Part shown: positions 3,908 through 25,385 of the stretch, in pieces | How the letters are laid out: each line of letters starts with the position of its first letter | Position numbering within the stretch: the stretch's first letter is position 1 | Assembly (NCBI RefSeq): GCF_014279995.1 | Contig: NZ_CP047935.1 | Location: 2,563,494 to 2,627,493 of the forward strand | DNA length: 64,000 bases | Direction of reading: 5' to 3' | Source of the DNA: Synechococcus sp. BIOS-E4-1 | GTDB taxonomy: Bacteria > Cyanobacteriota > Cyanobacteriia > PCC-6307 > Cyanobiaceae | Notes under the pieces: generated by a model | Told to the model about the DNA's origin: nothing | Databases searched by the model: none | Seen by the model: only the letters and a program-made list of their open reading frames with translations | Made by a program: the position numbers and the translations under genes

Positions 3908-5227
3908 CTATCGATCAGGACGTGGACGGCGTCGATCAGACACCAGTCGTTGAGCTTGACCGCGCCCACCGATCAATCCTGTGGATTCGAGAGAGCAGCG
4001 GATCAGAAGTCCCACGATCATCAGACTCGAGAGCAGTGAGTTGCCTCCGTAGCTCACCAGCGGCAGCGGCAGTCCGGTTGTTGGCATGGCTCCGGATGCC
4101 ACGGCCACGTTCATCACCGATTGGCCCACGAGCAGTGCTGCGCAACCAATGGCAACAAGCCTGGCCTGATTGCTTCGGCATCGGAGAGCAACGCGTAGTC
4201 CCAGATAGCCGATCAACATCAGGAACAGAAGCAGCAGCAAGGACCCCACCAGTCCAAATTCTTCGGCGTAGACCGCGAAGATGAAGTCGGTGCTCTGAAT
4301 CGGCAAATATTGCAGTTTCTGGGTGGAGAGACCGAATCCCTGGCCGAAAACCCCGCCCGAGCCGATCGCCAGCAGGCTTTGGATCAGTTGATATCCATCA
4401 CCCTGCGGATCCTTCCAGGGATTCAGAAAGGAAATCACGCGCAGACGCTGGTATTCGTTGATCAGGATGCTTGCGGTGCCAAGAAGCGCTCCTCCGATCG
4501 CTGTCCCGAACAGCTGAAAGAGCGGCAGTCCTGCTGAAAAGGCCATCAGCCAGATCAGCAGGCCGGTTAAAGCAGCGGTGCTCAGGTTGGGCTGCTTGAG
4601 AATCAGCAGCACCAGAATCCCGAAACTGCTCAGCCACAGAAGCTTTTGATCCAGCCCGTTCCGTTTCCAATGCGCGAAGAGGTTTGCCGCTTGCAGCACC
4701 ACAAACGGTTTCACGAGTTCGGAAGGCTGAATCTGAATCGGTCCGATCACCAGCCAGCGGCTGGCTCCATTCACGGTGGTTCCCATCACCAGGGTCGCTG
4801 CGATCAAGAGGCAGCCAATCCAGAGTGCGGGTCCGGCCAGTTTCAGCCAGCGCCGCAGATTGATCGATGCTGTGAATGACATCAGGCTCCAGCTGGCTGC
4901 CATCCACACCAATTGTCTTTTGACGTAATAAGCCCCCTCACCTTGTTCACGCGCAGCGACCCACCAGCTGGCAGAAGCGAGCACCAGCAGGCCTGCCAGG
5001 CTCCAGATCGCTGTGAGTGTGAGCAGCAGACGTGCTTCCGCAGGCCAGAGTGACCATTCGAGCGGCAGATAACGCTCCCATAGAGGCTTGGATTCAGCGG
5101 CAGCCTTTTGTCGTTCCCGCAGGGTGCCCTGACGTGAGGATCGACTCCTTCTGGAGATCACGGTGGGGCTGCTCAAAACGATCGTAGGTGTTGCATGTAT
5201 TGAGCCGTCCTTGAGACGGTTTGCCAA
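3908..5227 (-). CDS. ftsW: Lipid II polymerase FtsW (SEDS family)
   Basis: A SEDS-family peptidoglycan polymerase of up to 439 residues with about ten membrane segments. Diagnostic motifs include GASRWLVIGPIQIQPSELVK, the QSTDFIFAVYAEEFG loop and the C-terminal PTTGLPLPLVSYGGNSLL. FtsW makes septal glycan strands together with FtsI. A basic, disordered N-terminal tail of about 50 residues precedes the first membrane segment. The longest frame starts with TTG at 5227; GTG at 5161 or TTG at 5176 are alternatives. It is separated from the apc operon by that operon's terminator. Confidence 0.94.
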   Translation of the reverse strand: MANRLKDGSIHATPTIVLSSPTVISRRSRSSRQGTLRERQKAAAESKPLWERYLPLEWSLWPAEARLLLTLTAIWSLAGLLVLASASWWVAAREQGEGAYYVKRQLVWMAASWSLMSFTASINLRRWLKLAGPALWIGCLLIAATLVMGTTVNGASRWLVIGPIQIQPSELVKPFVVLQAANLFAHWKRNGLDQKLLWLSSFGILVLLILKQPNLSTAALTGLLIWLMAFSAGLPLFQLFGTAIGGALLGTASILINEYQRLRVISFLNPWKDPQGDGYQLIQSLLAIGSGGVFGQGFGLSTQKLQYLPIQSTDFIFAVYAEEFGLVGSLLLLLFLMLIGYLGLRVALRCRSNQARLVAIGCAALLVGQSVMNVAVASGAMPTTGLPLPLVSYGGNSLLSSLMIVGLLIRCSLESTGLIGGRGQAQRLVSDRRRPRPDR

Positions 5228-12896: not shown

Positions 12897-13364
12897 ATGA
12901 CCTGGCTTCTGCTTGCTGAAGCAGCGGTGCCGGAGGGAGGTCTTTTTGACCTCGATGCCACCTTGCCTGTAATGGCTGTTCAGGTGGTTCTCCTGACCTT
13001 CCTGCTCAATTCCCTCTTCTTCCGTCCGGTCGGCAAGGTCGTGGAAGATCGTGAGGGTTACATCTCCACAAGCCTTGCTGATGCCAAGCAGAAGCTTGAG
13101 CAGGTCCAGCGTTTAGAGGCTGAACTCACTGAACAACTCCGCGGTGCTCGCCAGGCCGCTCAGGCCGCGATTCTCGAAGCTGAGCAGGAGGTCGACAATC
13201 TGTATCGCGAAGCCATCGCGACAACCGAAGCCGATGCCAATCGCACAAGGGAAAAAGCCCGCCGTGAGATTGAGACACAGCGAGAGCAGGCTCAGTCGCA
13301 GCTCATGAGCAAAGTCGATGAGTTCAGCGCAAAGATCATTCAACGTCTGCTGGCCGTTTCATGA
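12897..13364 (+). CDS. atpF2: ATP synthase subunit b' (second stator b)
   Basis: A 155-residue b' subunit, the diverged partner of b found in photosynthetic organisms. One hydrophobic segment lies at about residues 24-44, followed by a long charged helix rich in Glu, Gln, Arg and Ala that forms a coiled-coil peripheral stalk with b. The stop overlaps the atpF start by 4 bases, implying translational coupling. Confidence 0.96.
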
Positions 13365-13882
13365 TGTCTCTTGTCACCTTGTTTGCAGCAGAGGGTGGTT
13401 TCGCAATCAACCTCAATCCCCTTGACACGAACCTGATCAATCTGGTCATTGTCATTGGGTTGCTGGTTTATTTCCTCAAGGGATTGCTGGGCGGCATCCT
13501 TGAGCGTCGCCGGGAGTCAATTCTCAAGGAATTGAACGATGCGGAAACCCGACTCAAAACTGCCACCACAGAGCTGAGTAAGGCGCAGGCCGATCTCGGT
13601 TCTGCCAAAGAAAAAGCTGAGAAGATCCGCGCCGATGGCAAAGCCAGGGCACAGGCCATCCGTGTGGATGGTGAGCAGCGCACCATCGAGGCAATGGCTG
13701 CCCTGAAGCAGGATGCTCTTGCCGATCTGAACGCCGAAGGTGCACGTCTCACAGAGCAGCTACGGCGCGAAGCTGCCCTGGCTGCCATCGACAAGGTGAT
13801 GGCGGATCTGCCCGGACGTCTTGATGCTTCAGCTCAAGCCCGTCTGATCGACGCCTCCATCAACAATCTGGAGGACGCCTGA
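13361..13882 (+). CDS. atpF: ATP synthase subunit b
   Basis: A 173-residue stator subunit b with an N-terminal membrane anchor at about residues 24-46 and a long amphipathic helix. The start is ATGATG at 13361, so either the first or second Met could be used; both couple to the b' stop. The stop shares one base with atpH. Confidence 0.96.
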
Positions 13883-14430
13883 TGCCTCTTCTCAACACCC
13901 TGGCCACCCCTTACGCCGAAGCGTTGCTGCAGGTGACCAACGCTCGCAATGAGTCAGAGGACGTGGCAGCCCAGTGCAAGGAGCTCATTGCTCTTTGGGA
14001 CAGCAGCGAGTCACTGCGTGATGCCATGACCTCACCAGTGCTTGAGCCGATGGCCAAGAAGAAAGCCCTGGAGCAACTTCTGAGCCAGCAGATTCAGCCT
14101 TCCTTGTTGAATCTGCTCAAGGTTCTGGCCGATCGTTATCGCCTCACCGCTTTTGATGCCGTCCTGGGTCGGTATCTCGAGCTCTACCGCGAATCCCGCA
14201 AGATCTCGCTGGCGCATGTCCGCTCGGCTCAGGCACTGACTGACACTCAAAAGGCATCACTGACCGCCAAGATTGAGTCCATGGTCGGCAGCGGGTCCGT
14301 TGAGATTGACCTCACCATCGATCCGAGCCTGATTGGCGGCTTCGTCATCAATGTGGGATCTCAGGTCATCGACGCTAGTCTTTCCGGCCAAGTAAGGCGA
14401 CTCGGTCTTTCGCTTGCTAAGGCGAGCTGA
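13882..14430 (+). CDS. atpH: ATP synthase subunit delta
   Basis: A 182-residue delta subunit (OSCP homologue) that joins the peripheral stalk to the top of F1. The N-terminal LATPYAEALLQV helix and the C-terminal IDPSLIGGFVINVGSQVIDAS signature are clear. It overlaps atpF by one base (TGATG). A 57-base spacer, including a T-rich stretch, separates it from atpA. Confidence 0.96.
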   Translation: MPLLNTLATPYAEALLQVTNARNESEDVAAQCKELIALWDSSESLRDAMTSPVLEPMAKKKALEQLLSQQIQPSLLNLLKVLADRYRLTAFDAVLGRYLELYRESRKISLAHVRSAQALTDTQKASLTAKIESMVGSGSVEIDLTIDPSLIGGFVINVGSQVIDASLSGQVRRLGLSLAKAS

Positions 14431-16008
<1,578 letters not shown>

Positions 16009-16019
16009 GGCCCTGAGAT

Positions 16020-16970
16020 ATGGCAAATCTGAAGGAGATCCGAGATCGGATCAAATCTGTCAAGAACACCCGCAAGATCACCGAGGCCATGCGCCTCGTG
16101 GCTGCGGCCAAGGTTCGGCGTGCCCAGGAGCAGGTGTTGCGAAGTCGCCCCTTCGCGGATCGTCTCGCTCGACTGCTTGAAAACCTCCAGGCACGCATGC
16201 GTTTCGAGGATGCCGATGCTCCCTTGCTTGAGCAGCGCAACGTCGAGACCATCACCCTTGTGGCTGTCACCGGTGACCGTGGTCTCTGTGGTGGCTACAA
16301 CGCCAACATCATCAAACGCACTGAGACGCGTTTCGCTGAGCTTCAGGGCAAGGGATACAAGGTCGATCTGGTTCTGATCGGTCGCAAAGCCATCAGCTAT
16401 TTCACCAATCGGAGCTACCCGATCCAGGCCACCTTCACTGGTCTTGAGCAGGTTCCGACAGCGGATGAAGCAGGATCGATCGCCAACGAAGTGTTCGCGG
16501 AGTTTCTATCCGAGAGCACCGATCGTGTTGAGATCATCTACACCAAGTTCATCAACCTGGTGAGCTGCAACCCTGTTGTTCAGACTTTGCTTCCCCTTGA
16601 TCCTCAAGGTATTGCTGAGGCTGATGACGAGATCTTCCGTCTCACGACAAAAGACGGCGAGCTGCGGGTTGAATCTGGTGCAGGGCCGGCCAATACTCAG
16701 CCTCAGCTGCCTTCGGACATTGTCTTTGAGCAGAGCCCTGACCAATTGCTCAATGCCCTTCTGCCCCTTTACCTGCAGAATCAGCTGCTGAGATCGCTCC
16801 AGGAGGCCGCGGCGTCTGAGCTGGCAAGCCGAATGATGGCGATGAACAATGCCAGCGACAACGCCAAGGCGCTCGCCAAGACACTCACCCTTGACTACAA
16901 CAAGGCCCGTCAGGCGGCCATTACTCAGGAAATTCTTGAGGTTGTGGGTGGCGCCGCCGCAATGGTCTGA
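16020..16970 (+). CDS. atpG: ATP synthase subunit gamma
   Basis: A 316-residue central rotor shaft subunit. N- and C-terminal helices ([40 protein letters not shown]) form the coiled coil. The insertion typical of cyanobacterial and plastid gamma lies at about residues 196-232, but it lacks the redox cysteines of plant chloroplasts, as expected for a cyanobacterium. It is the last gene before a strong terminator, so beta and epsilon are encoded elsewhere, at 31.8-33.7 kb. Confidence 0.98.
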
Positions 16971-17009
16971 TCCGCTTTCAAACTGATTGCCAATCTGTAT
17001 GGGTTAGTC

Positions 17010-17035
17010 AGCCGGCCATGGGGCCGGCTTTTTTT
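17010..17035 (+). terminator. Rho-independent terminator of the atp cluster
   Basis: An 8-bp GC stem AGCCGGCC/GGCCGGCT closes a short loop and runs into a stretch of T. It lies 40 bases after the atpG stop. Confidence 0.92.
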
Positions 17036-17121
17036 GTGCGGTGCTGACGGTGTGTGGCTGGGGTGGATTCAGGCGGGCTCTACGCTGAGACGAGGCCATC
17101 GACGGGAGCATTCCAGGACAG

Positions 17122-17457
17122 ATGAGCGACAACACTCCAGCGGTTTATGCCGTCACCATTGAGCTTGATGGCCAGCAGCATCATTTTCAGTGCCACGACA
17201 ATCAGATCGTTTTGTCGGCTGCGGAAGAGGCCGGAGTGCCACTACCCAGCTCCTGCTGCGCAGGAGTTTGCACCACCTGTGCCGCACGCATCCAAGAGGG
17301 TGAGGTGCACCAGCCTGACGCGATGGGTGTCAAGGAGGATCTGCGCAAAAAGGGCTTCGCTCTCCTTTGTGTTTCCTTCCCACGTTCTGATCTCATCGCG
17401 GCTGCAGGTCAGGAGGATGCGCTTTATCAGGCTCAGTTCGGCCAGTACCAGAGCTGA
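17122..17457 (+). CDS. [2Fe-2S] ferredoxin, plant type
   Basis: A 111-residue soluble electron carrier. The cluster ligands are Cys45, Cys50, Cys53 and Cys83 in the C-x4-C-x2-C-x29-C spacing. Unlike PetF at 50.75 kb it has an extra Cys46 directly after the first ligand (PSSCCAGVCTTC), a basic central loop (VKEDLRKKG) and a longer C-terminal tail. It is thus a second, diverged ferredoxin, perhaps for a dedicated partner that the context does not reveal. It is monocistronic, with a weak hairpin CTGATG/CATCAG overlapping its stop. Confidence 0.92.
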   Translation: MSDNTPAVYAVTIELDGQQHHFQCHDNQIVLSAAEEAGVPLPSSCCAGVCTTCAARIQEGEVHQPDAMGVKEDLRKKGFALLCVSFPRSDLIAAAGQEDALYQAQFGQYQS

Positions 17458-17498
17458 TGTTCTCATCAGGGTTTGTTGCTTTTCGTCCAGAGATGCGT

Positions 17499-20039
17499 TC
17501 AGGCTTCAGCGCTCAACAGCTCAATGAAGCTGTAGTAATCCATGTCACGCATCTCTGTCCCGATGCTCAGAAGGGATCGCAGCGCAGCTCCGCTGCCGGA
17601 CTGGACGAAGTCCAGAGCCTGCGCCACATCTGCATCTCTGAATGAATTGGAGTTGAGGTTGCCTATGGCTTCAAATTCCTTGGCAAGATTGATCACGGCA
17701 CTCTTGTATTTGTCCAGCTTGTTGACATCAGGAAGGTCATGCCCATTGATGTTTTGCCAAAGACCAGTCAGCGCTCGACCTATCGCTCGATTGAGGATTG
17801 CCTGGCTTTTGGCGACATCCTGAGCCTCGCGGAAGGAACTGCGAATGACTTGATGAGGCGCGGTGTGCGTCACCGCATTCAGCCCCTTCGCGTGCTCATT
17901 CATCATTGTGCCGCTGAGACCTTCATAGGCTGCATTCACGATTCCATCGATAATCTGATCTCGGCTCTGCTCAGAGTGTCCGTTGCGCTGGAGTGCCCAG
18001 TCGATGGTCGTGAGTGGTGAAATCACATTCGATTCCGCATCAGCCAGCAGCAAGCCTTCATAAGGCTGGCCGGTGAGGATATCTGTCCCGCCGTGAAACA
18101 CCAAGGTTCCCTCTCCCGCAAAGGATGACTGCGCGTACTGCCCGTTTTCGTCAGTGATCACTGTGTCCAGTTCGGACCAATCATGAACCCGTTCTCCCTT
18201 GTCAAGATGTATACGACCGAACTGCAGCGGGCCGTTGGTCGTGGTGCCAAGCTTCTTGATGAAGGGAGGCGTCCAGCGCTGATCGGAATCCTGACTGAAA
18301 ATTGATGCATCTTTGTCCCCATTGGCGCGAGTTGGAGTTGGGTTGTACAGCCTGAGGATCACATTGAACTGGTCATTTCTGCTGCCTTCAGCAGGGGTCG
18401 GCAGCCAGTATTGTCCGGTGCTGTTTGAGCCTGGTGATGTGGAGGCGAGAGTGATGGAGAGATCGACCTCCCCGTAATTCTCCGCGTAGTCAAATTGATT
18501 GGATCCCAGCGAATAAACTCCTGTCGTGGGATCGAATTCGTTTTTCAGGTAAAAATTGTTGAGATTGTCTTTGTCTGTTCCAACAAGAAAATTGTCGTTT
18601 TCGTAAACGGTGACTGACCAGAAACCTGGTTGATTGATTGGTGCAAGCTTGCTGTTTTCAGGCGTGAAAGTGATGCTGTAATCGTGTTGGGAGGATAAAT
18701 CCTCTGGGTGTTTGCGGCTCTTGCCAATTCCCTTGCTCGTCTGTGGATAGGTGCCGTCCGATGCCAGGTTTGCCCCAAGCCCAACATCCGCAACGGCGGC
18801 GGCGGTTATCCAGCCTGCGTAGTTCGGTTCGTATTGGCCCAGTGTGGTGTTGATGGTCCAGTAATGATCCTCTTCTGTGGGATTTGTGGAGCTGCTGATC
18901 AGGTCAATCGCTCTGAGGGCGTCTTCATGCCCTTTGTTGATGATCTCAGGGTTGCTGCCTTCCGGGAAGGAATATTGATTGCTGTTGCTCCGGGCTGTCA
19001 GTCCGATCGAATAGGTGCCGGCCCCGAAGGCGTTGAAGAGTTCTTGCTGATCGTAAAGCGTTCCTGTTGGTTTTAGCTCGCCATTGATGTTGGTTCCAGA
19101 GTAGAAAACAAGCGGTTGACCTTTGTAGCTGTTGTTGTAGACGGCATTTGAGAGTTGTGTGAAAAAATCAACGGTTGTGGTTGTTTCGTTTTTTGTGACG
19201 TCAGAGGTTGAGTAGTCCCTGGTCGGTGTGATGTCGCCGGTGTAGTTGACCTTTGCTTTGAATTCATGGTTCAATCGTCGGATCTTGTCGATTGCCAGTG
19301 CCTGTGACTGGCTCTGCATCAACTTCTGATAGGGGGTTGGATCGCTGTCGGTCTTGCTGTTGCTGCTCAGATAGGGGTCGACATTGATGCGACCGAGAAC
19401 CCAGGCCTGTGGACTGGTGAGGGCGATGGCGTCAGGATCTTTGGCTAGTGCCTGATTGATGACATGGCTAGATGCGCCGGCCCAGTAAAAAGTTCTTTTT
19501 GCAATGCCCTGGCTGTTGTTGTCCTGCTTGATTTGATTCGCTGAACCATCGCTGAACTGGACGTTGGTGTAAGGGTCAATCACCTGAATGCCTGTATAAA
19601 CCCCTTCGTTAATTTCTGGTGTTGGATATCTAATAGTGACAACCTTGTTTGAAAGGTCGAGGAAAGCATTGGAGTAAAGAACCTCTGTATTTGGCGATAC
19701 AATGGTGTCGCCATCATCAATATCCAGGGCGTTGTAAAAGCTGTTCGGAGAGCTCCCGCCGTCTTCGACGTTGTTGATGTACAGCCCTTGCTTTTGCCAA
19801 AACTGCTGGATCGGTAGTCCCCAAACAGTCGCGATGACGGCACCGATGTAGGTGCCGCTGCTTTCGATCATCGCTAATTCGCGTGGACTGATGAGTGGAT
19901 TTTTTGTTTCCTCTGATGCGCTGTTTTTGGCTGCGGACTTGGCCTTCTCGTATAACAACCCATAGAAGAACAACAAGCTGTCGGGTGAATCGGTTGTGGT
20001 GGCACCTGACAGAGGGCTTGGGCAGGAGCTTGCAGGCAT
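17499..20039 (-). CDS. DUF1254/DUF1214 protein with C-terminal surface-protein-like module
   Basis: An 846-residue protein from the ATG at 20039. Residues about 105-210 match DUF1254 (DGDTIVSPNTEVLYSNAFLD; then IDPYTNVQF). Residues about 400-570 match DUF1214 (GFWSVTVYENDNFLV; YWLPTP; RLYNPTPT). The segment 625-720 has TDENGQY, GGTDILTGQPYEG and VISPLTTIDWALQ, a pattern I recall from large secreted marine proteins. The last 150 residues are not recognised. It has no signal peptide and no cysteine-rich region. It is visibly richer in A/T than its neighbours, which suggests transfer. The frame is open upstream to a TTG at 20117. Confidence 0.75.
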   Translation of the reverse strand: MPASSCPSPLSGATTTDSPDSLLFFYGLLYEKAKSAAKNSASEETKNPLISPRELAMIESSGTYIGAVIATVWGLPIQQFWQKQGLYINNVEDGGSSPNSFYNALDIDDGDTIVSPNTEVLYSNAFLDLSNKVVTIRYPTPEINEGVYTGIQVIDPYTNVQFSDGSANQIKQDNNSQGIAKRTFYWAGASSHVINQALAKDPDAIALTSPQAWVLGRINVDPYLSSNSKTDSDPTPYQKLMQSQSQALAIDKIRRLNHEFKAKVNYTGDITPTRDYSTSDVTKNETTTTVDFFTQLSNAVYNNSYKGQPLVFYSGTNINGELKPTGTLYDQQELFNAFGAGTYSIGLTARSNSNQYSFPEGSNPEIINKGHEDALRAIDLISSSTNPTEEDHYWTINTTLGQYEPNYAGWITAAAVADVGLGANLASDGTYPQTSKGIGKSRKHPEDLSSQHDYSITFTPENSKLAPINQPGFWSVTVYENDNFLVGTDKDNLNNFYLKNEFDPTTGVYSLGSNQFDYAENYGEVDLSITLASTSPGSNSTGQYWLPTPAEGSRNDQFNVILRLYNPTPTRANGDKDASIFSQDSDQRWTPPFIKKLGTTTNGPLQFGRIHLDKGERVHDWSELDTVITDENGQYAQSSFAGEGTLVFHGGTDILTGQPYEGLLLADAESNVISPLTTIDWALQRNGHSEQSRDQIIDGIVNAAYEGLSGTMMNEHAKGLNAVTHTAPHQVIRSSFREAQDVAKSQAILNRAIGRALTGLWQNINGHDLPDVNKLDKYKSAVINLAKEFEAIGNLNSNSFRDADVAQALDFVQSGSGAALRSLLSIGTEMRDMDYYSFIELLSAEA

Positions 20040-20191
20040 GTCAGCTCGTGTCGACTTTCTTCCGTTGTAGTGATGGTTTTCGTGCTTGTGACGGTTCGTG
20101 GCGCACCGCATCCACAAAGAGTCCGGTGTATTGATCCGCGAAAATCAGCTTGGCGTCTCCTGATTTGTTTCCTGCTCTTTGCCTGTTGGTC

Positions 20192-20383
20192 ATGAAGCTC
20201 ACTTTCAGGCGGTTGTCGCTGACCAGTTCCGAACCGCTTGCCACTCATGGCTTGCGTTCCTGGGTTCTCCAGCAGCTTCAACGGGAGGGCGAACCGCTGC
20301 GCTGGGCCATCACCTCCATCGATCGTTCCTCTGAGACAGCCCAAACTGCGGTTGAGGTCGAAGCGGTGCTGATTCACTCATGA
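20192..20383 (+). CDS. Small conserved hypothetical protein (63 aa)
   Basis: A 63-residue protein starting MKLTFRRLSLTSSEPLATHG at the ATG at 20192. Its stop overlaps the next gene start by 4 bases (ATGA), which supports real coding and coupling with the DUF3326 gene. No domain is recognised; it is soluble with no cysteines. The C-terminal half (LRWAITSIDRS then VEVEAVLIHS) looks like a beta-strand-rich small fold. Confidence 0.62.
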   Translation: MKLTFRRLSLTSSEPLATHGLRSWVLQQLQREGEPLRWAITSIDRSSETAQTAVEVEAVLIHS

Positions 20384-21450
20384 CGCTGACCACGGCACCG
20401 CTGCCCACGCTGATGGTCGTGCCGACCGGTATCGGCTGTGAGATTGGGGGGTTCGCAGGTGATGCCCTGCCCAGTGCCCGTCTGCTGGCAGCGGCCAGCG
20501 GTTGCCTGATTACCCATCCCAATGTGATCAACGGCGCCTCGCTGTACTGGCGTGATCCGCGCATTCACTACGTCGAGGGTTACGCCCTCGATCGTTTTGC
20601 CTCAGCTGCCTGGGGGCTGCGCCCCAGGCGCAGTCAGCGCATCGGCCTGTTGCTGGATGCCGGCATCGAATCGGATCTGCTGCTGCGACATCGTCAGGTC
20701 GCAGAGGGCTGCAGGGCCAGTCTTGGCCTTGACGTCAACGCTGTGGTGAGCACCGATGAGCCTCTGGGTGTGCATCTGGCTGCTGGCCCTAGCGGCACCA
20801 GCTGGGGCACCTTGGATCGACCCGACGCGCTTCTGAGAGCGGCAGAGCGCCTCAAGGCAGCAGGGTCAACCGCTATCGCTGTGGTGGCGCGTTTCCCCGA
20901 CGATCACACAAGTGAGGCTTTGACTGCCTACCGCCACGGGAGTGGAGTGGATGTTCTCGCCGGAGCTGAAGCCGTGATCAGTCATCTGCTGGTTCGGCAT
21001 CTGAAGATGCCCTGCGCCCATGCTCCAGCGCTTGCGGCTCTGCCCCTCGACATTGACCTTGACCCACGCGCTGCCGGCGAGGAGCTTGGTTACACATTTC
21101 TCGCCTGTGTGCTGGTGGGTCTGAGCAGGGCGCCGGACCTGCTGGATCTCTCTTCTGGCTGTTCGATCGCGCCCGATGATCTTGTCGCCGAGCAGTTGGG
21201 GGCCGTTGTGGTGCCGGATGGTGCGCTTGGGGGGGAGGCTGTGCTTGCTTGTCTGGAACGGGATGTTCCAGTGATAGCCGTCAGCAACCCAGGCATGTTG
21301 TCGGTGACTGCGGAGGCCCTCGATGTGGGGCCTCAGGTGCTGAAGGCGAGCTCTTATGCCGAAGCTGCCGGTTTGTTGGTCGCCCTGCGCGAGGGCCTCG
21401 CCATCGCATCTCTTGTCCGTCCTCTGCCCTCTCTGCGGGAGCTGAAGTAA
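20380..21450 (+). CDS. DUF3326 family protein
   Basis: A 356-residue protein of the DUF3326 family, common in cyanobacteria and of unknown function. It starts with a Gly-rich nucleotide-loop-like stretch VVPTGIGCEIGGFAGDA. Conserved blocks include THPNVINGASLYW, VARFPDD and VVPDGALGGEAVLACLERDVPVIAV. It is predicted cytosolic. It is coupled to the small upstream gene and overlaps the YchJ gene by one base (TAATG), so the three form a tight operon. Confidence 0.87.
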   Translation: MTLTTAPLPTLMVVPTGIGCEIGGFAGDALPSARLLAAASGCLITHPNVINGASLYWRDPRIHYVEGYALDRFASAAWGLRPRRSQRIGLLLDAGIESDLLLRHRQVAEGCRASLGLDVNAVVSTDEPLGVHLAAGPSGTSWGTLDRPDALLRAAERLKAAGSTAIAVVARFPDDHTSEALTAYRHGSGVDVLAGAEAVISHLLVRHLKMPCAHAPALAALPLDIDLDPRAAGEELGYTFLACVLVGLSRAPDLLDLSSGCSIAPDDLVAEQLGAVVVPDGALGGEAVLACLERDVPVIAVSNPGMLSVTAEALDVGPQVLKASSYAEAAGLLVALREGLAIASLVRPLPSLRELK

Positions 21451-21881
21451 TGGCAATGGGCTTTGCCAAGGTCCCAACGCGACCCTGTCCCTGTGGAAGC
21501 GGCTTCACTCTGGACCAGTGCTGCGGTCCACTGCACAGGGGCAGGCTGCAGGCGGTGACTGCGGAACAGTTGATGCGATCTCGCTACTCCGCATACGCGC
21601 TCGCGCAGGTGGAGTATCTGATCGCCACCCATCCCGGTGCCGTCGGGACACCTGTTGAGCGGCGGCGTGAGCTGCGTGCCAGCTGCCGGCAGACCCGATG
21701 GCATGGCCTCACGGTGTTGGACACCACGGCCGGTCAATCGGATGATCTGGAAGGGTCCGTGAGTTTCGAGGCCGTCTTCAGCGTCGGTGGAGCACGGCAG
21801 GTGTTGAGCGAACACTCGCTGTTCCGCAGGCGTGATGGCGAACCGACAGGCCCATGGCTTTACATCGGTCCGCTGGATTGA
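21450..21881 (+). CDS. YchJ-family protein with SEC-C zinc motif (UPF0225)
   Basis: A 143-residue protein. The N-terminal CPCGSGFTLDQCCGPLH is a SEC-C zinc-binding motif. It is followed by the YchJ M-domain with AEQLMRSRYSAYALAQVEYLIATHP and WHGLTVL. Function is unsettled; the domain often accompanies SecA or protein quality-control factors. The ATG at 21450 shares a base with the DUF3326 stop. Its end is 4 bases from the convergent ald gene. Confidence 0.9.
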   Translation: MAMGFAKVPTRPCPCGSGFTLDQCCGPLHRGRLQAVTAEQLMRSRYSAYALAQVEYLIATHPGAVGTPVERRRELRASCRQTRWHGLTVLDTTAGQSDDLEGSVSFEAVFSVGGARQVLSEHSLFRRRDGEPTGPWLYIGPLD

Positions 21882-21885
21882 CCTG

Positions 21886-22998
21886 TCAGCGCAGGCAGGC
21901 CATCGGGTGCCGCGGTGGTACTCCAAGAGCTTTCGCGACTCCTGGATGACAGACCGCACCCTGCACGGTGTTCAGCCCTGAAAGCAGCTCCGGACGTTCG
22001 GTCACGGCCTCTTCCAGGCCGCGTCCAGCGATGCCGAGGATGTAGGGCAAGGTCACGCTCACCAGGGCTTCCGTGGAGGTGAAGGGCACGGCGCCGGGCA
22101 TATTGCCAACGGCATAGTGCTGCACGCCATGGATGAACACCGTTGGATCCGTATGAGTTGTCTCACGGCTTGTGGCAATACAGCCCCCCTGGTCAACAGC
22201 GACGTCGACGATCGCTGATCCCGGCATCATCTGCTTCACCATCTCCTCATCCACCAATGTCGGCGCCCGCCCTCCTGGGGTCAGCACGGCGCCGATCAGC
22301 AGATCCGCGGTTGGAACCAGGCGCTCCAGCAGTCCGCGACTGCTCACCATGCTGATCAGGCGCCCACGCCGGTCTGCTTCAAGGCTGCGCAACCGCTCGG
22401 GGGAGCGATCGAGGAGCAGCACCTCGGCATCCATAGCCGCAGCGAGTCGTGCTGCATTCCAGCCCACCGTGCCGGCTCCCAGCACCACAACGCGGGCTGG
22501 ACGCACGCCGGTGCACCCACCAATCAAGACCCCACGCCCGCCATTGGGCCGTTCCAGAAGCCTGGCACCGACCTGCGCTGCAAGTCGGCCTGCGATTTCG
22601 CTCATCGGGGCCAGCAGCGGCAGGCTTCCGTTCTCCAATTGCACCGTTTCGTAGGCCACCCCTGTGGTGCCTGCATCCAGGAGGGCCTCTCCCACCTGGC
22701 TGTAAGCCGCCAGATGCAGGTAGGTGAACAGCACCATGTCGTCGCGCAGAAGACTGAACTCCTCCGGCTGCGGCTCCTTCACCTTCACCACCAAGTGTGC
22801 AGCCCAGGCCTCCTCGCGGTTCACAAGCCTGGCTCCTGCCGCTGCGAAGGCGTCGTCGCTGATGCCTGCTCCGGCCCCGGCTCCGTTCTGGATCCGTACC
22901 TCAAGGCCCTGGGTCACCAGTTCACGGACCGCATCCGGGGTGAGCGCCACACGCTGTTCATCGGCCTTGATCTCAGTTGGGACCCCGATACTGGCCAT
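21886..22998 (-). CDS. ald: Alanine dehydrogenase
   Basis: A 370-residue NAD-dependent alanine dehydrogenase that interconverts alanine with pyruvate and ammonium. The N-terminal IGVPTEIKADEQRVALTP and FTYLHLAAY (catalytic His) and the Rossmann motif VVLGAGTVGWNAARLA are intact. The ATG at 22998 (MASIGVPTEIK) matches the family; a second ATG 27 bases upstream is in frame. It is monocistronic or loosely linked to nadE, 57 bases away. Confidence 0.96.
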   Translation of the reverse strand: MASIGVPTEIKADEQRVALTPDAVRELVTQGLEVRIQNGAGAGAGISDDAFAAAGARLVNREEAWAAHLVVKVKEPQPEEFSLLRDDMVLFTYLHLAAYSQVGEALLDAGTTGVAYETVQLENGSLPLLAPMSEIAGRLAAQVGARLLERPNGGRGVLIGGCTGVRPARVVVLGAGTVGWNAARLAAAMDAEVLLLDRSPERLRSLEADRRGRLISMVSSRGLLERLVPTADLLIGAVLTPGGRAPTLVDEEMVKQMMPGSAIVDVAVDQGGCIATSRETTHTDPTVFIHGVQHYAVGNMPGAVPFTSTEALVSVTLPYILGIAGRGLEEAVTERPELLSGLNTVQGAVCHPGVAKALGVPPRHPMACLR

Positions 22999-23054
22999 CG
23001 GGGCCGTCAGAACGGAATGGGCCATGGAGGACGGAGTCGTGTCTTCAATGTGGC

Positions 23055-24788
23055 TCAGACGGCGGCGATCGGCAGCCGCCAGCCACTGCCGAACGCCTGA
23101 GCACTCACCTTCAGCAACGGCGCTGCCTGTCTCCGTTTGAACTCAGCCCTCCTGAATAGGTTCTCGATCCGTTGCACCTCCTCAGGATCGTGGCCAGCAG
23201 CCGTCAGCTCCTGCCCGCTGAGGCGGTGTTCGATCATGTCGATCAGCAGGGGGTCAAGCCGGTCGTAGTCGGGGAGTGAGTCACTGTCTTTCTGGTCTGG
23301 ACGCAGTTCGGCACTGGGAGGTTTCTCGAGGATTGCGCTGCCGATCAGCTCTCCCTCGGCCGGTAGGGCCAGTTCCTTGCGGCACAAGCTTGCCTCGCTG
23401 CTGTCGATCCAATGGCACAACGCAAACACGGTTGATTTGTACAGATCACCGATCACGGCCAGGCCGCCGTTCATGTCGCCATAGAGGGTGCAGTAGCCCA
23501 CCGCGAGTTCTGATTTGTTCCCCGTGGTCAGCAGCAGCTGTCCCTGCTGATTGGCCATGGCCATCAGCAGAGTGCCGCGGATGCGTGACTGCAGATTTTC
23601 GGCTGTCACCCCTGATGGAAGGCTCTCCAGGGCAGGGGTCAAGGTCGCCTGGAAGCCGTCCATCAGGTTTTCGATGGGAACAATGGTGTGGGCGATTCCC
23701 AGTCGATCCGCAAGCTTGAGAGCATCTCTGAGTGAGCCGTCCGAACTCCAGGGGGACGGCATCAGCAGGGTTTGCACCTGATCGGATCCGAGGGCCGCGG
23801 CAGCGATCACAGCCACCAGCGCTGAGTCGATGCCTCCGCTCAGGCCAAGCAGGACTCTCTGGAAGCCACATTTGCCGGCATAGTCCTTCACACCAGTCAC
23901 CAGAGTGCGGAACAGCGCTTCCATCTCCTGCTGTTCAGTCTGGGTTCGCTGCGTCGTGGCTGATTCAGTGATTGTCGATGGGGCCCTGTCTGCGGCATTC
24001 CAGATCTGTATCGCTTCACGGCAGTCCGGAAGCTGCAGAAGCGGCGTCTCGTCGTTGTTGCCCATCACGAAGCTGGCACCGTCGAACACCAGTTCGTCAT
24101 TGCCTCCCACCTGATTGACGTATACCACCGGGCAGCCGAGGCGCTGCGCCGCCCGTGCCGCCAACTGGCGCCGCAGAGCAGCCTTTCGGCGGCCAAAGGG
24201 TGAGGCTGAGCAGTTGATCAGCGCATCGATCCTTGAGGGGATCAGATCGGCCACAGGGTCTGGTCCCACCAGACGACGGCCATGCAGTTCTTGGTCGACC
24301 CACAGGTCTTCGCAGATGGTGATCCCCAGTCGCCAGTTGCGGTCTCCGCTGCTGAGTGTGATCTGCCCAGCTCCATGGCTCGGCCTGAAATAACGCGTTT
24401 CGTCAAAGACGTCGTAGCTGGGAAGAAGTTGCTTACGGGCCACCACGTGATCGCCACCGACTTGCACGAGGGTGATGGCGTTGAACAGCGCAGGATGCAA
24501 GGCGTCGTCTGCTGGATCAGCGATTCCCACCAGCAGAGCGATGTCTGACTGACGGTCGGCAAGACCACTGCGGAGAGCGTCGAGGGCCTCCCGTTGCCGT
24601 TGCAGGTGAGTGGGGCTGAACAGCAGATCTCTTGGTGGGTAACCCCAGAGCGACAGCTCGGGCGTGACCAGCAGGTCCGGTTGGCTGCCCGTGGTCTCGA
24701 TCAGGCTGTCGAGACTTTTCAGAATGCGGGTGGCATTGCCCAGCAAGTCGCCCACAACAGGATTGATCTGGGCCAGGGCAACGCGCAT
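23055..24788 (-). CDS. nadE: Glutamine-dependent NAD+ synthetase
   Basis: A 577-residue two-domain enzyme for the last step of NAD synthesis, nicotinate adenine dinucleotide to NAD. The N-terminal carbon-nitrogen hydrolase (about 1-270) contains LGITICEDLW with the nucleophilic Cys and releases ammonia from glutamine. The C-terminal NAD synthase has the ATP pyrophosphatase loop LLGLSGGIDSALV. The ATG at 24788 is used; a GTG two codons earlier is possible. It follows nadD by 6 bases, giving a nadD-nadE unit for consecutive steps. Confidence 0.97.
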   Translation of the reverse strand: MRVALAQINPVVGDLLGNATRILKSLDSLIETTGSQPDLLVTPELSLWGYPPRDLLFSPTHLQRQREALDALRSGLADRQSDIALLVGIADPADDALHPALFNAITLVQVGGDHVVARKQLLPSYDVFDETRYFRPSHGAGQITLSSGDRNWRLGITICEDLWVDQELHGRRLVGPDPVADLIPSRIDALINCSASPFGRRKAALRRQLAARAAQRLGCPVVYVNQVGGNDELVFDGASFVMGNNDETPLLQLPDCREAIQIWNAADRAPSTITESATTQRTQTEQQEMEALFRTLVTGVKDYAGKCGFQRVLLGLSGGIDSALVAVIAAAALGSDQVQTLLMPSPWSSDGSLRDALKLADRLGIAHTIVPIENLMDGFQATLTPALESLPSGVTAENLQSRIRGTLLMAMANQQGQLLLTTGNKSELAVGYCTLYGDMNGGLAVIGDLYKSTVFALCHWIDSSEASLCRKELALPAEGELIGSAILEKPPSAELRPDQKDSDSLPDYDRLDPLLIDMIEHRLSGQELTAAGHDPEEVQRIENLFRRAEFKRRQAAPLLKVSAQAFGSGWRLPIAAV

Positions 24789-24794
24789 CGGCAC

Positions 24795-25385
24795 TCAGGA
24801 GTTGGCGGCATTGAATCCATAAAGATTGTGCTTCAGCAGCAGCGGCCAGAGGCATTCCGGCACCTGCTGTCGTTTCTGCTTTTGTTTCACCTGTGAACTG
24901 GCAGCAGCGGGAATGCCCAGAGGCAGCACCCTTGCAGCGGCTCCCATCTGGCGAAGGGTCTGCAGAGTGCACAGCTCCAGGGGCCATCCCTCACGGGGCA
25001 CGATGCTGAGATTGCATTGCTGCAACATGCGCTGAGACTCTTTCCATGATGGGATCTGTTGAGCGAGATCGCTTCCCACGACAAAACAGAGGCGGTGGTC
25101 AGGCCAACGTTCGCTAGCCCGTTCCAGTGTGGTGACGGCAAAGGGGCTGCTCAGCTCCTGGGCCAGTTGCAGCCTGGGACTGGCGATCGATTCAACCAGG
25201 GTTTTCAGCAGGTCACAACGCTGCTCAAGATCGGCGTCATGGTGTTTCATCGGGTTGTCACTGGCCCATGTGGCGACTCGGTCAAACTGGGTTAACAGTC
25301 CTTCCAGCAGTGCCTGATGGCCCACGGTCGGAGGGTCGGCACTGGTCCCGAGCAAGGCAATCTCAGCTCTGGCTTTTGTCGCCAT
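24795..25385 (-). CDS. nadD: Nicotinate-nucleotide adenylyltransferase
   Basis: A 196-residue nucleotidyltransferase that makes deamido-NAD from NaMN and ATP. The N-terminal LLGTSADPPTVGHQALLEG carries the HxGH-like motif in the GxxxPPxxGH form. The usual C-terminal ISSTxIR motif appears only as SSQVKQKQ, a divergent version seen in cyanobacterial-type NadD. It lies 6 bases upstream of nadE and 2 bases downstream of the GTPase gene, so all belong to one transcript. Confidence 0.93.
   Translation of the reverse strand: MATKARAEIALLGTSADPPTVGHQALLEGLLTQFDRVATWASDNPMKHHDADLEQRCDLLKTLVESIASPRLQLAQELSSPFAVTTLERASERWPDHRLCFVVGSDLAQQIPSWKESQRMLQQCNLSIVPREGWPLELCTLQTLRQMGAAARVLPLGIPAAASSQVKQKQKRQQVPECLWPLLLKHNLYGFNAANS

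Follow-up and report, generated by a model that had tools for sequence, protein, structure and literature searches.

Proteins that combine a DUF1254 and a DUF1214 domain are known from diverse bacteria and fungi (PMC4634964). We recognised no study in the literature on the protein described here or on the biochemistry of the two domains, and of the papers found only one discusses a function, namely for a secreted PF06742 protein of Malassezia, for which homology modelling predicts a jelly-roll glycosyl hydrolase (PMC4634964). Two proteins in the PDB contain a similar region, VPA0106 (3u07) and VPA0735 (2p3y, 3vb9); they have 443–491 aa and were deposited as uncharacterised or hypothetical. Exported proteins of marine picocyanobacteria have been described as more specific to lineages and less well characterised than the rest of the proteome (PMC4949707). 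The same article reports exo-chitinases of Synechococcus that have no signal peptide, are predicted to undergo non-classical secretion and have been detected in exoproteomes (PMC4949707).

Here we describe a gene of Synechococcus sp. BIOS-E4-1 that joins the known DUF1254/DUF1214 pair to an end module that is also found in giant proteins. The gene lies in the window, by which we mean the whole stretch of 64,000 nucleotides that was analysed (Table 1). Its ORF is intact, and two close relatives have the identical start and the full length. Both domains score above the Pfam cut-offs (DUF1254: 47.4 bits vs 22.2; DUF1214: 39.3 bits vs 25) and the protein contains the stretch TDENGQY...GGTDILTGQPYEG...VISPLTTI, which agrees with a preliminary description of this DNA as encoding an 846-residue protein with these two domains and a C-terminal module. 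Pfam matched nothing C-terminal of DUF1214 and NCBIfam gave no match to the protein. The gene was also described as standing alone between its neighbours, and the ORF list indeed shows only the ferredoxin-like ORF and the 356-aa ORF flanking it. No promoter-like pattern was found near the gene. The small 63-aa ORF (Table 1) was found by exact string search in five of the eight slots of the clade described below (G000, G001, G002, G003 and G024).

Table 1. Features of the locus, with positions counted in the window.
Feature	Position	Strand	Basis
846-aa gene with DUF1254, DUF1214 and C-terminal module	17499..20039	-	ORF call, ATG start, residues counted down from 20039
DUF1254 domain, residues 99-221	19377..19745	-	Pfam PF06863, E 2.9e-12
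DUF1214 domain, residues 446-568	18336..18704	-	Pfam PF06742, E 1.1e-9
Predicted beta-sandwich half of C-terminal module, about residues 593-672	18024..18263	-	hhalign and AlphaFold2 strands
Predicted helical half of C-terminal module, about residues 673-846	17502..18023	-	AlphaFold2 model of residues 593-846; stumps in relatives
Ferredoxin-like gene flanking one side of the slot	17122..17457	+	2Fe-2S, named by eye from cysteine motif
Conserved 356-aa gene flanking the other side of the slot	20380..21450	+	ORF; kept across genus and family
63-aa small ORF	20192..20383	+	Stop overlaps start of 356-aa gene by 4 bases

When the DUF1254/DUF1214 part is compared to proteins in the PDB, a profile of five relatives matches VPA0106 with E 7e-11 and VPA0735 with E 0.0013–0.0014. 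This likeness is confined to the DUF region, whereas the C-terminal profile does not match these proteins. An alignment of 12 proteins, which includes four paralogues from the same genome, has 12 invariant columns, one of which is the start Met, and all of these residues are kept in the 846-aa protein (e.g. Y122, D155, S475, Y479, R563 and Y565); R217 is nearly invariant. The full-length AlphaFold2 model (12 rows) has a mean pLDDT of 48.5, and its DUF part is too unreliable to reveal an active site. With the Malassezia protein, the 846-aa protein has the DUF1214 domain in common; the former is fungal, has a signal peptide and is predicted by modelling to be a jelly-roll glycosyl hydrolase, and the section that describes it does not mention the module (PMC4634964). 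By analogy, the DUF1254/DUF1214 part might have a carbohydrate target, which we consider possible but doubtful. The more general role of a cell-surface enzyme, as put forward in the preliminary description, is plausible.

Related proteins occur both within and outside this genome. The genome (G000; one contig, 3.31 Mb) contains five DUF1254 matches over the cut-off, i.e. the 846-aa gene, three paralogues at 871–874 kb and one at 1308 kb. The three tandem genes (L113:4764-9303) adjoin an ORF that resembles an FAD-dependent amine oxidase (named by eye). A 1016-aa protein of Synechococcus WH7803 (L004/L111/L117) has DUF1254, DUF1214 and the same C-terminal module and, like the 846-aa protein, no signal-peptide-like stretch. 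It is 47% identical over residues 2–762, but it is encoded at another genome location, at 827,442–830,489 of CT971583, and its C-terminus is extended by a part that matches DUF4114 below the cut-off.

To search for the C-terminal module, we used profiles of four and then five rows. The module was found in five of the 31 genus genomes, which comprise four full-length carriers (G000 included) and one genome (G020) with a module in an RTX protein (E 5e-7). Across the phylum, the profile search detected the module at 47 places in 30 of 386 genomes, in open frames of 568–8675 aa. G000 and G113 aside, there were 45 places, and 20 of these loci were fetched. At least three GGxGxDxxx (RTX) motifs are present in 15 of these 20 module frames and fewer than three in the other five, compared to none of the 54 other frames of at least 300 aa from the same loci, which are mechanical stop-to-stop frames with only 12 reaching 500 aa. 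The weakest module match, in L108 with E 2e-6, could have arisen by chance. The module ends 291–843 residues before the C-terminus in 19 of the frames and 1305 residues before it in L100. Seven frames were scanned with Pfam; HemolysinCabind was found in five of them, and the other domains were FG-GAP, cadherin, He_PIG, Calx-beta, VWA, SdrD_B and DUF4347.

Aligning the C-terminus of the 846-aa family with the giant-protein modules by hhalign resulted in a probability of 98.5 and an E-value of 2.2e-15 over 100 columns, a span that includes the beta half but reaches no further than the first helix. Judged by profile similarity in its beta half, the C-terminal module is homologous to the module of very large RTX-type proteins. 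The statement in the preliminary description that this module belongs to giant extracellular proteins is thus supported by both profile searches and hhalign, and similarity to proteins of secreted type was found, as the RTX motifs in most module frames show. The giants also extend past the VISPLTTL motif in the alignment, which is only suggestive of homology between the helical half and their continuation. The cyanobacterial RTX giants that carry the module (for example, the one with 2154 aa in G020, L109) differ from the 846-aa protein in several ways. Most of them have RTX repeats and adhesin-type domains, whereas the 846-aa protein has no RTX repeats; conversely, no match to DUF1254 or DUF1214 was found in the frames of the 20 fetched loci, whereas the 846-aa protein has both. 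Furthermore, most beta halves of the giants contain two DxNxNG-type loops; in the 846-aa protein, the first is degenerate and the extra loop of the DxNxNGxxDxxEG type is missing. One giant-protein module used as a protein query matched 13 of 72,556 plasmid records, including Azospirillum, Niveispirillum and Thalassospira, and two 255-kb Vibrio phages over about half its length (E 7e-6). Thus, the module is not only cyanobacterial.

The AlphaFold2 model of residues 593–846 (22 rows) has a mean pLDDT of 86.7 and a pTM of 0.89; in it, the chain folds first into a beta sandwich and then into a helical bundle. The preliminary description had set apart an unrecognised tail of 150 residues; because of the succession of sandwich and bundle in the model, this tail is best seen as the predicted helical half of one compact beta+alpha module rather than as a separate part. 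Searching the PDB by sequence with the C-terminal profile gave a best E of 0.34, and Foldseek returned 344 matches of the model with E ≤ 10 and none with E ≤ 0.001. With VIA-align 2 over 999 Foldseek chains, 37 reached Z ≥ 2 and none Z ≥ 5. The beta half has a weak likeness to transthyretin-like domains (5aq0_B: Z 2.8, rmsd 2.9, 69 aligned), with 2xet_A (Z 2.2, rmsd 2.9, 66 aligned) and 8bdw_A (Z 2.0, rmsd 3.6, 75 aligned) as further matches; the domains compared were transthyretin/prealbumin-like beta domains (CarboxypepD_reg, CnaB and the like). The absence of strong fold matches in the PDB does not show that the fold is new. The N-domain of RsaA (6t72) was rejected as a fold match, as its Foldseek E of 0.44 is not significant. 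Only one predicted viral protein was matched with E ≤ 0.001; it has 955 residues and comes from Aureococcus anophagefferens virus, whose host is a marine alga, and the module model matches part of it (E 5.7e-5, TM 0.51 by query length, rmsd 6.5).

We then compared the N-termini using a simple hydropathy test. The 846-aa protein and its four full-length relatives have no hydrophobic leader (top 12-residue mean 0.50–1.03), whereas three of the four paralogues in the same genome have a hydrophobic, signal-peptide-like one (2.05–2.07). The fourth paralogue (L114) has no clear leader with the start used, and that start is uncertain. Neither HemolysinCabind nor RTX repeats were found in the 846-aa protein by Pfam, and no HlyB/HlyD or other secretion genes were seen by eye among the ORFs at 13000–25000 of the window. 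For the module-bearing RTX protein of 2154 aa in G020 (HemolysinCabind E 4.9e-10), the gene comes immediately after ABC_membrane, ABC_tran and HlyD genes (HlyD: 279.6 bits vs the TIGR01843 cut-off of 208.65). A candidate exporter in the BIOS-E4-1 genome is an HlyB-like and HlyD-like pair at 3,222,872–3,227,087, where both matches are below the cut-off (712.9 vs 725.55 bits and 152.9 vs 208.65 bits, respectively) and such low HlyD matches are unspecific, being found also in 13 of 14 control genomes. HlyD over the cut-off is present in eight of the 31 genus genomes and in none of the four full-length carriers, two of which (G002 and G022) are just 70–80% complete. Given the exo-chitinases without signal peptide in Synechococcus exoproteomes (PMC4949707), a route that does not involve Sec would not be odd for this group.

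The gene is far from universal. Full-length carriers are four of the 31 genus genomes (G000, G002, G022 and G010, which is WH7803) and, with G113 added, at least five of 400 family genomes; the latter is a lower bound because no more than two candidates were scored in each genome. A scan of viral contigs with the whole protein resulted in four pattern matches, none of which is a relative. None of 50,697 phage records matched the 846-aa protein, and PHROGs yielded nothing below E 0.18. Of 72,556 plasmid records, 53 match the protein, none covering 80% of it, and the named features among the plasmid matches listed are DUF1254 proteins.

In contrast to the 846-aa gene, the flanking 356-aa gene is present in all 31 genus genomes and in all 121 family genomes. 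The ferredoxin-like gene was matched beside it in 26 of 30 genus loci; in the other four, the intact gene fills the locus (L030, L036 and L037) or the contig ends (L053). We compared the slot between the two neighbours in a clade of eight genomes, which are the closest by the 356-aa gene (86–100% identity). The 846-aa gene is intact in G000, G002 and G022, and a C-terminal stump with about the last 75 residues survives in G003, G024 and G001 (L033, L034 and L035), while G016 and G011 contain about 390–430 bases unlike the gene. Compared with G002, G003 has a gap of 2376 bases, the ends of which share GGATCGAT, an 8-base direct repeat; to either side of this gap the two genomes are 96–97% identical. 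The breaks in G024 and G001 are at almost the same position (L033, L034 and L035 vs L002). In the tree of the 356-aa gene, G002 and G003 are sisters (100/99) and form a group of four with the adjoining G024 and G001 (100/99); G022 branches outermost, apart from a group of the seven others (94/96). The tree of the ferredoxin-like gene, which is short (333 columns), conflicts with it in part, as it groups G024 with G000 (89/87) and G001 with G003 (89/93), with G002 beside them (99/97). From the slot contents and the clade trees it follows, most simply, that the gene already occupied the slot when the clade began to diverge and that the deletions came later. As non-sister genomes share a breakpoint and the trees conflict, either the deletion probably recurred at the short repeat or alleles were exchanged.

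Outside the clade, the slot measures about 190–240 bases in 21 of 23 genus genomes, the other two being G026, where the contig ends, and G010. The relative in G113, which belongs to another genus, is located between the 356-aa gene and atpG, i.e. in the same variable slot, with the relative orientation likewise the same. We saw no ferredoxin-like gene at this locus. On either side of the relative is a 695-base stretch with a 2OG-Fe(II) oxygenase gene; the two copies are identical and in direct orientation (L027:652-1346 and 4068-4762; L110 wider), which is a sign of a recent duplication or insertion. After the relative comes an ORF in which RTX-like motifs can be seen by eye and which has no Pfam match. 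The interval from atpG to the 356-aa gene varies across the 121 family genomes (positions compared by eye). Nine enlarged intervals (L124-L132) contain other genes, and the ORFs picked there have no match to the DUF or module profiles. By eye, these ORFs were named as, for example, dehydrogenase-like, alkyltransferase-like, PIN-domain-like and sulfotransferase-like.

The preliminary description had concluded from the A/T-richness of the gene that it was acquired. The lower GC content is real: it is 0.517 compared to a mean of 0.597 (sd 0.034), which is 2.4 sd below, where the mean is based on 33 mechanically picked window ORFs of at least 250 aa, the 846-aa gene included. However, GC3 is 0.604 compared to a mean of 0.653 (sd 0.041), which is 1.2 sd below, and the codon-usage distance of 0.25 is at the low end of the typical range (0.21–0.60 for all 62 ORFs). 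GC at the three codon positions is 0.521/0.426/0.602, Ser, Thr, Asn and Asp are abundant in the protein, and the A/T-richness is mostly an amino-acid effect. As GC3 and codon use are near normal, the argument from composition mostly fails; the same slot and orientation in another genus and the deletion stumps, which show loss, also speak against it. An older acquisition into a variable slot may nevertheless have taken place, given the family-wide variation of the interval.

Three pairs among G000, G002 and G022 have a dN/dS of 0.21–0.22 (0.190/0.920, 0.198/0.955 and 0.117/0.541), compared to 0.10–0.12 for the 356-aa gene; these ratios are rough because dS is high and saturated in some segments. 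The 846-aa gene is thus under purifying selection and evolves faster than its 356-aa neighbour. Between G002 and G022, dS is 0.22–0.32 in the C-terminal module and 0.61–0.99 in the rest (L002, L003), and the values at the C-terminal end, which are two to four times lower, may reflect recombination.

How could these observations be explained? The reading that we prefer, and to which we give about an even chance, is that the gene encodes a DUF1254/DUF1214 protein without signal peptide that is exported or retained via the end module of giant proteins, probably by a type I system, and acts on surface material. The signal-peptide-like start that is usual for family members in this genome is absent, and the beta+alpha C-terminal module of RTX-type giants is found instead. 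The protein would most likely be exported without Sec, and the exporter would probably be of type I (HlyB/HlyD-type). It would then stay near or on the cell surface, where its DUF1254/DUF1214 part would act on extracellular or surface material, perhaps polysaccharide. A further-reaching suggestion, which we put forward tentatively and hold to be rather doubtful, is that the beta+alpha module is a self-sufficient C-terminal unit for export or surface retention. Attached to a DUF pair that is normally exported by Sec, it might reroute this pair to a non-Sec path in a few marine Synechococcus.

Alternatively, rather than serving export or anchoring, the module could be a domain with a structural or partner-binding role that has spread among large proteins, and the 846-aa protein could be cytoplasmic. 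The lack of a signal-peptide-like stretch, of RTX repeats and of adjoining secretion genes would fit a cytoplasmic protein; however, the other module carriers examined are large multidomain proteins, mostly with RTX motifs, adhesin-type domains occur in those that were scanned, and one carrier is part of a type I secretion gene cluster. We therefore regard a cytoplasmic location as unlikely. The patchy presence, the lower GC content, the slot that varies in the family and the exact repeats around the G113 relative could instead mean that the gene is recently acquired cargo, possibly with a role in interactions with grazers or phages or in self/non-self recognition, the last of which had also been suggested in the preliminary description. 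We saw no sign of a self/non-self role. Such a recent arrival is hard to reconcile with near-normal GC3 and codon use, with the same slot and orientation in another genus and with an intact gene in G022, the outermost branch of the clade in the 356-aa gene tree. Phage records without a match and plasmid records that all fall short of 80% of the protein also argue against it, and we judge it to be quite improbable. Finally, the stumps in three of the eight clade genomes and the lack of any part of the gene in two could indicate a decaying gene on its way out, which we consider very improbable, as three clade genomes retain it intact and its dN/dS is low.

The 846-aa protein offers a way to study the module, as a protein of ordinary size makes its job testable without a protein of 2000–8000 residues. 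It also provides a handle on the poorly understood DUF1254/DUF1214 pair. Lastly, a 901-aa DUF1254/DUF1214 protein of G018 (L112:7943-10645) has a different C-terminal end with a DUF4114 match below the cut-off; it is possibly a separate fusion of the DUF pair to a secreted-type end.
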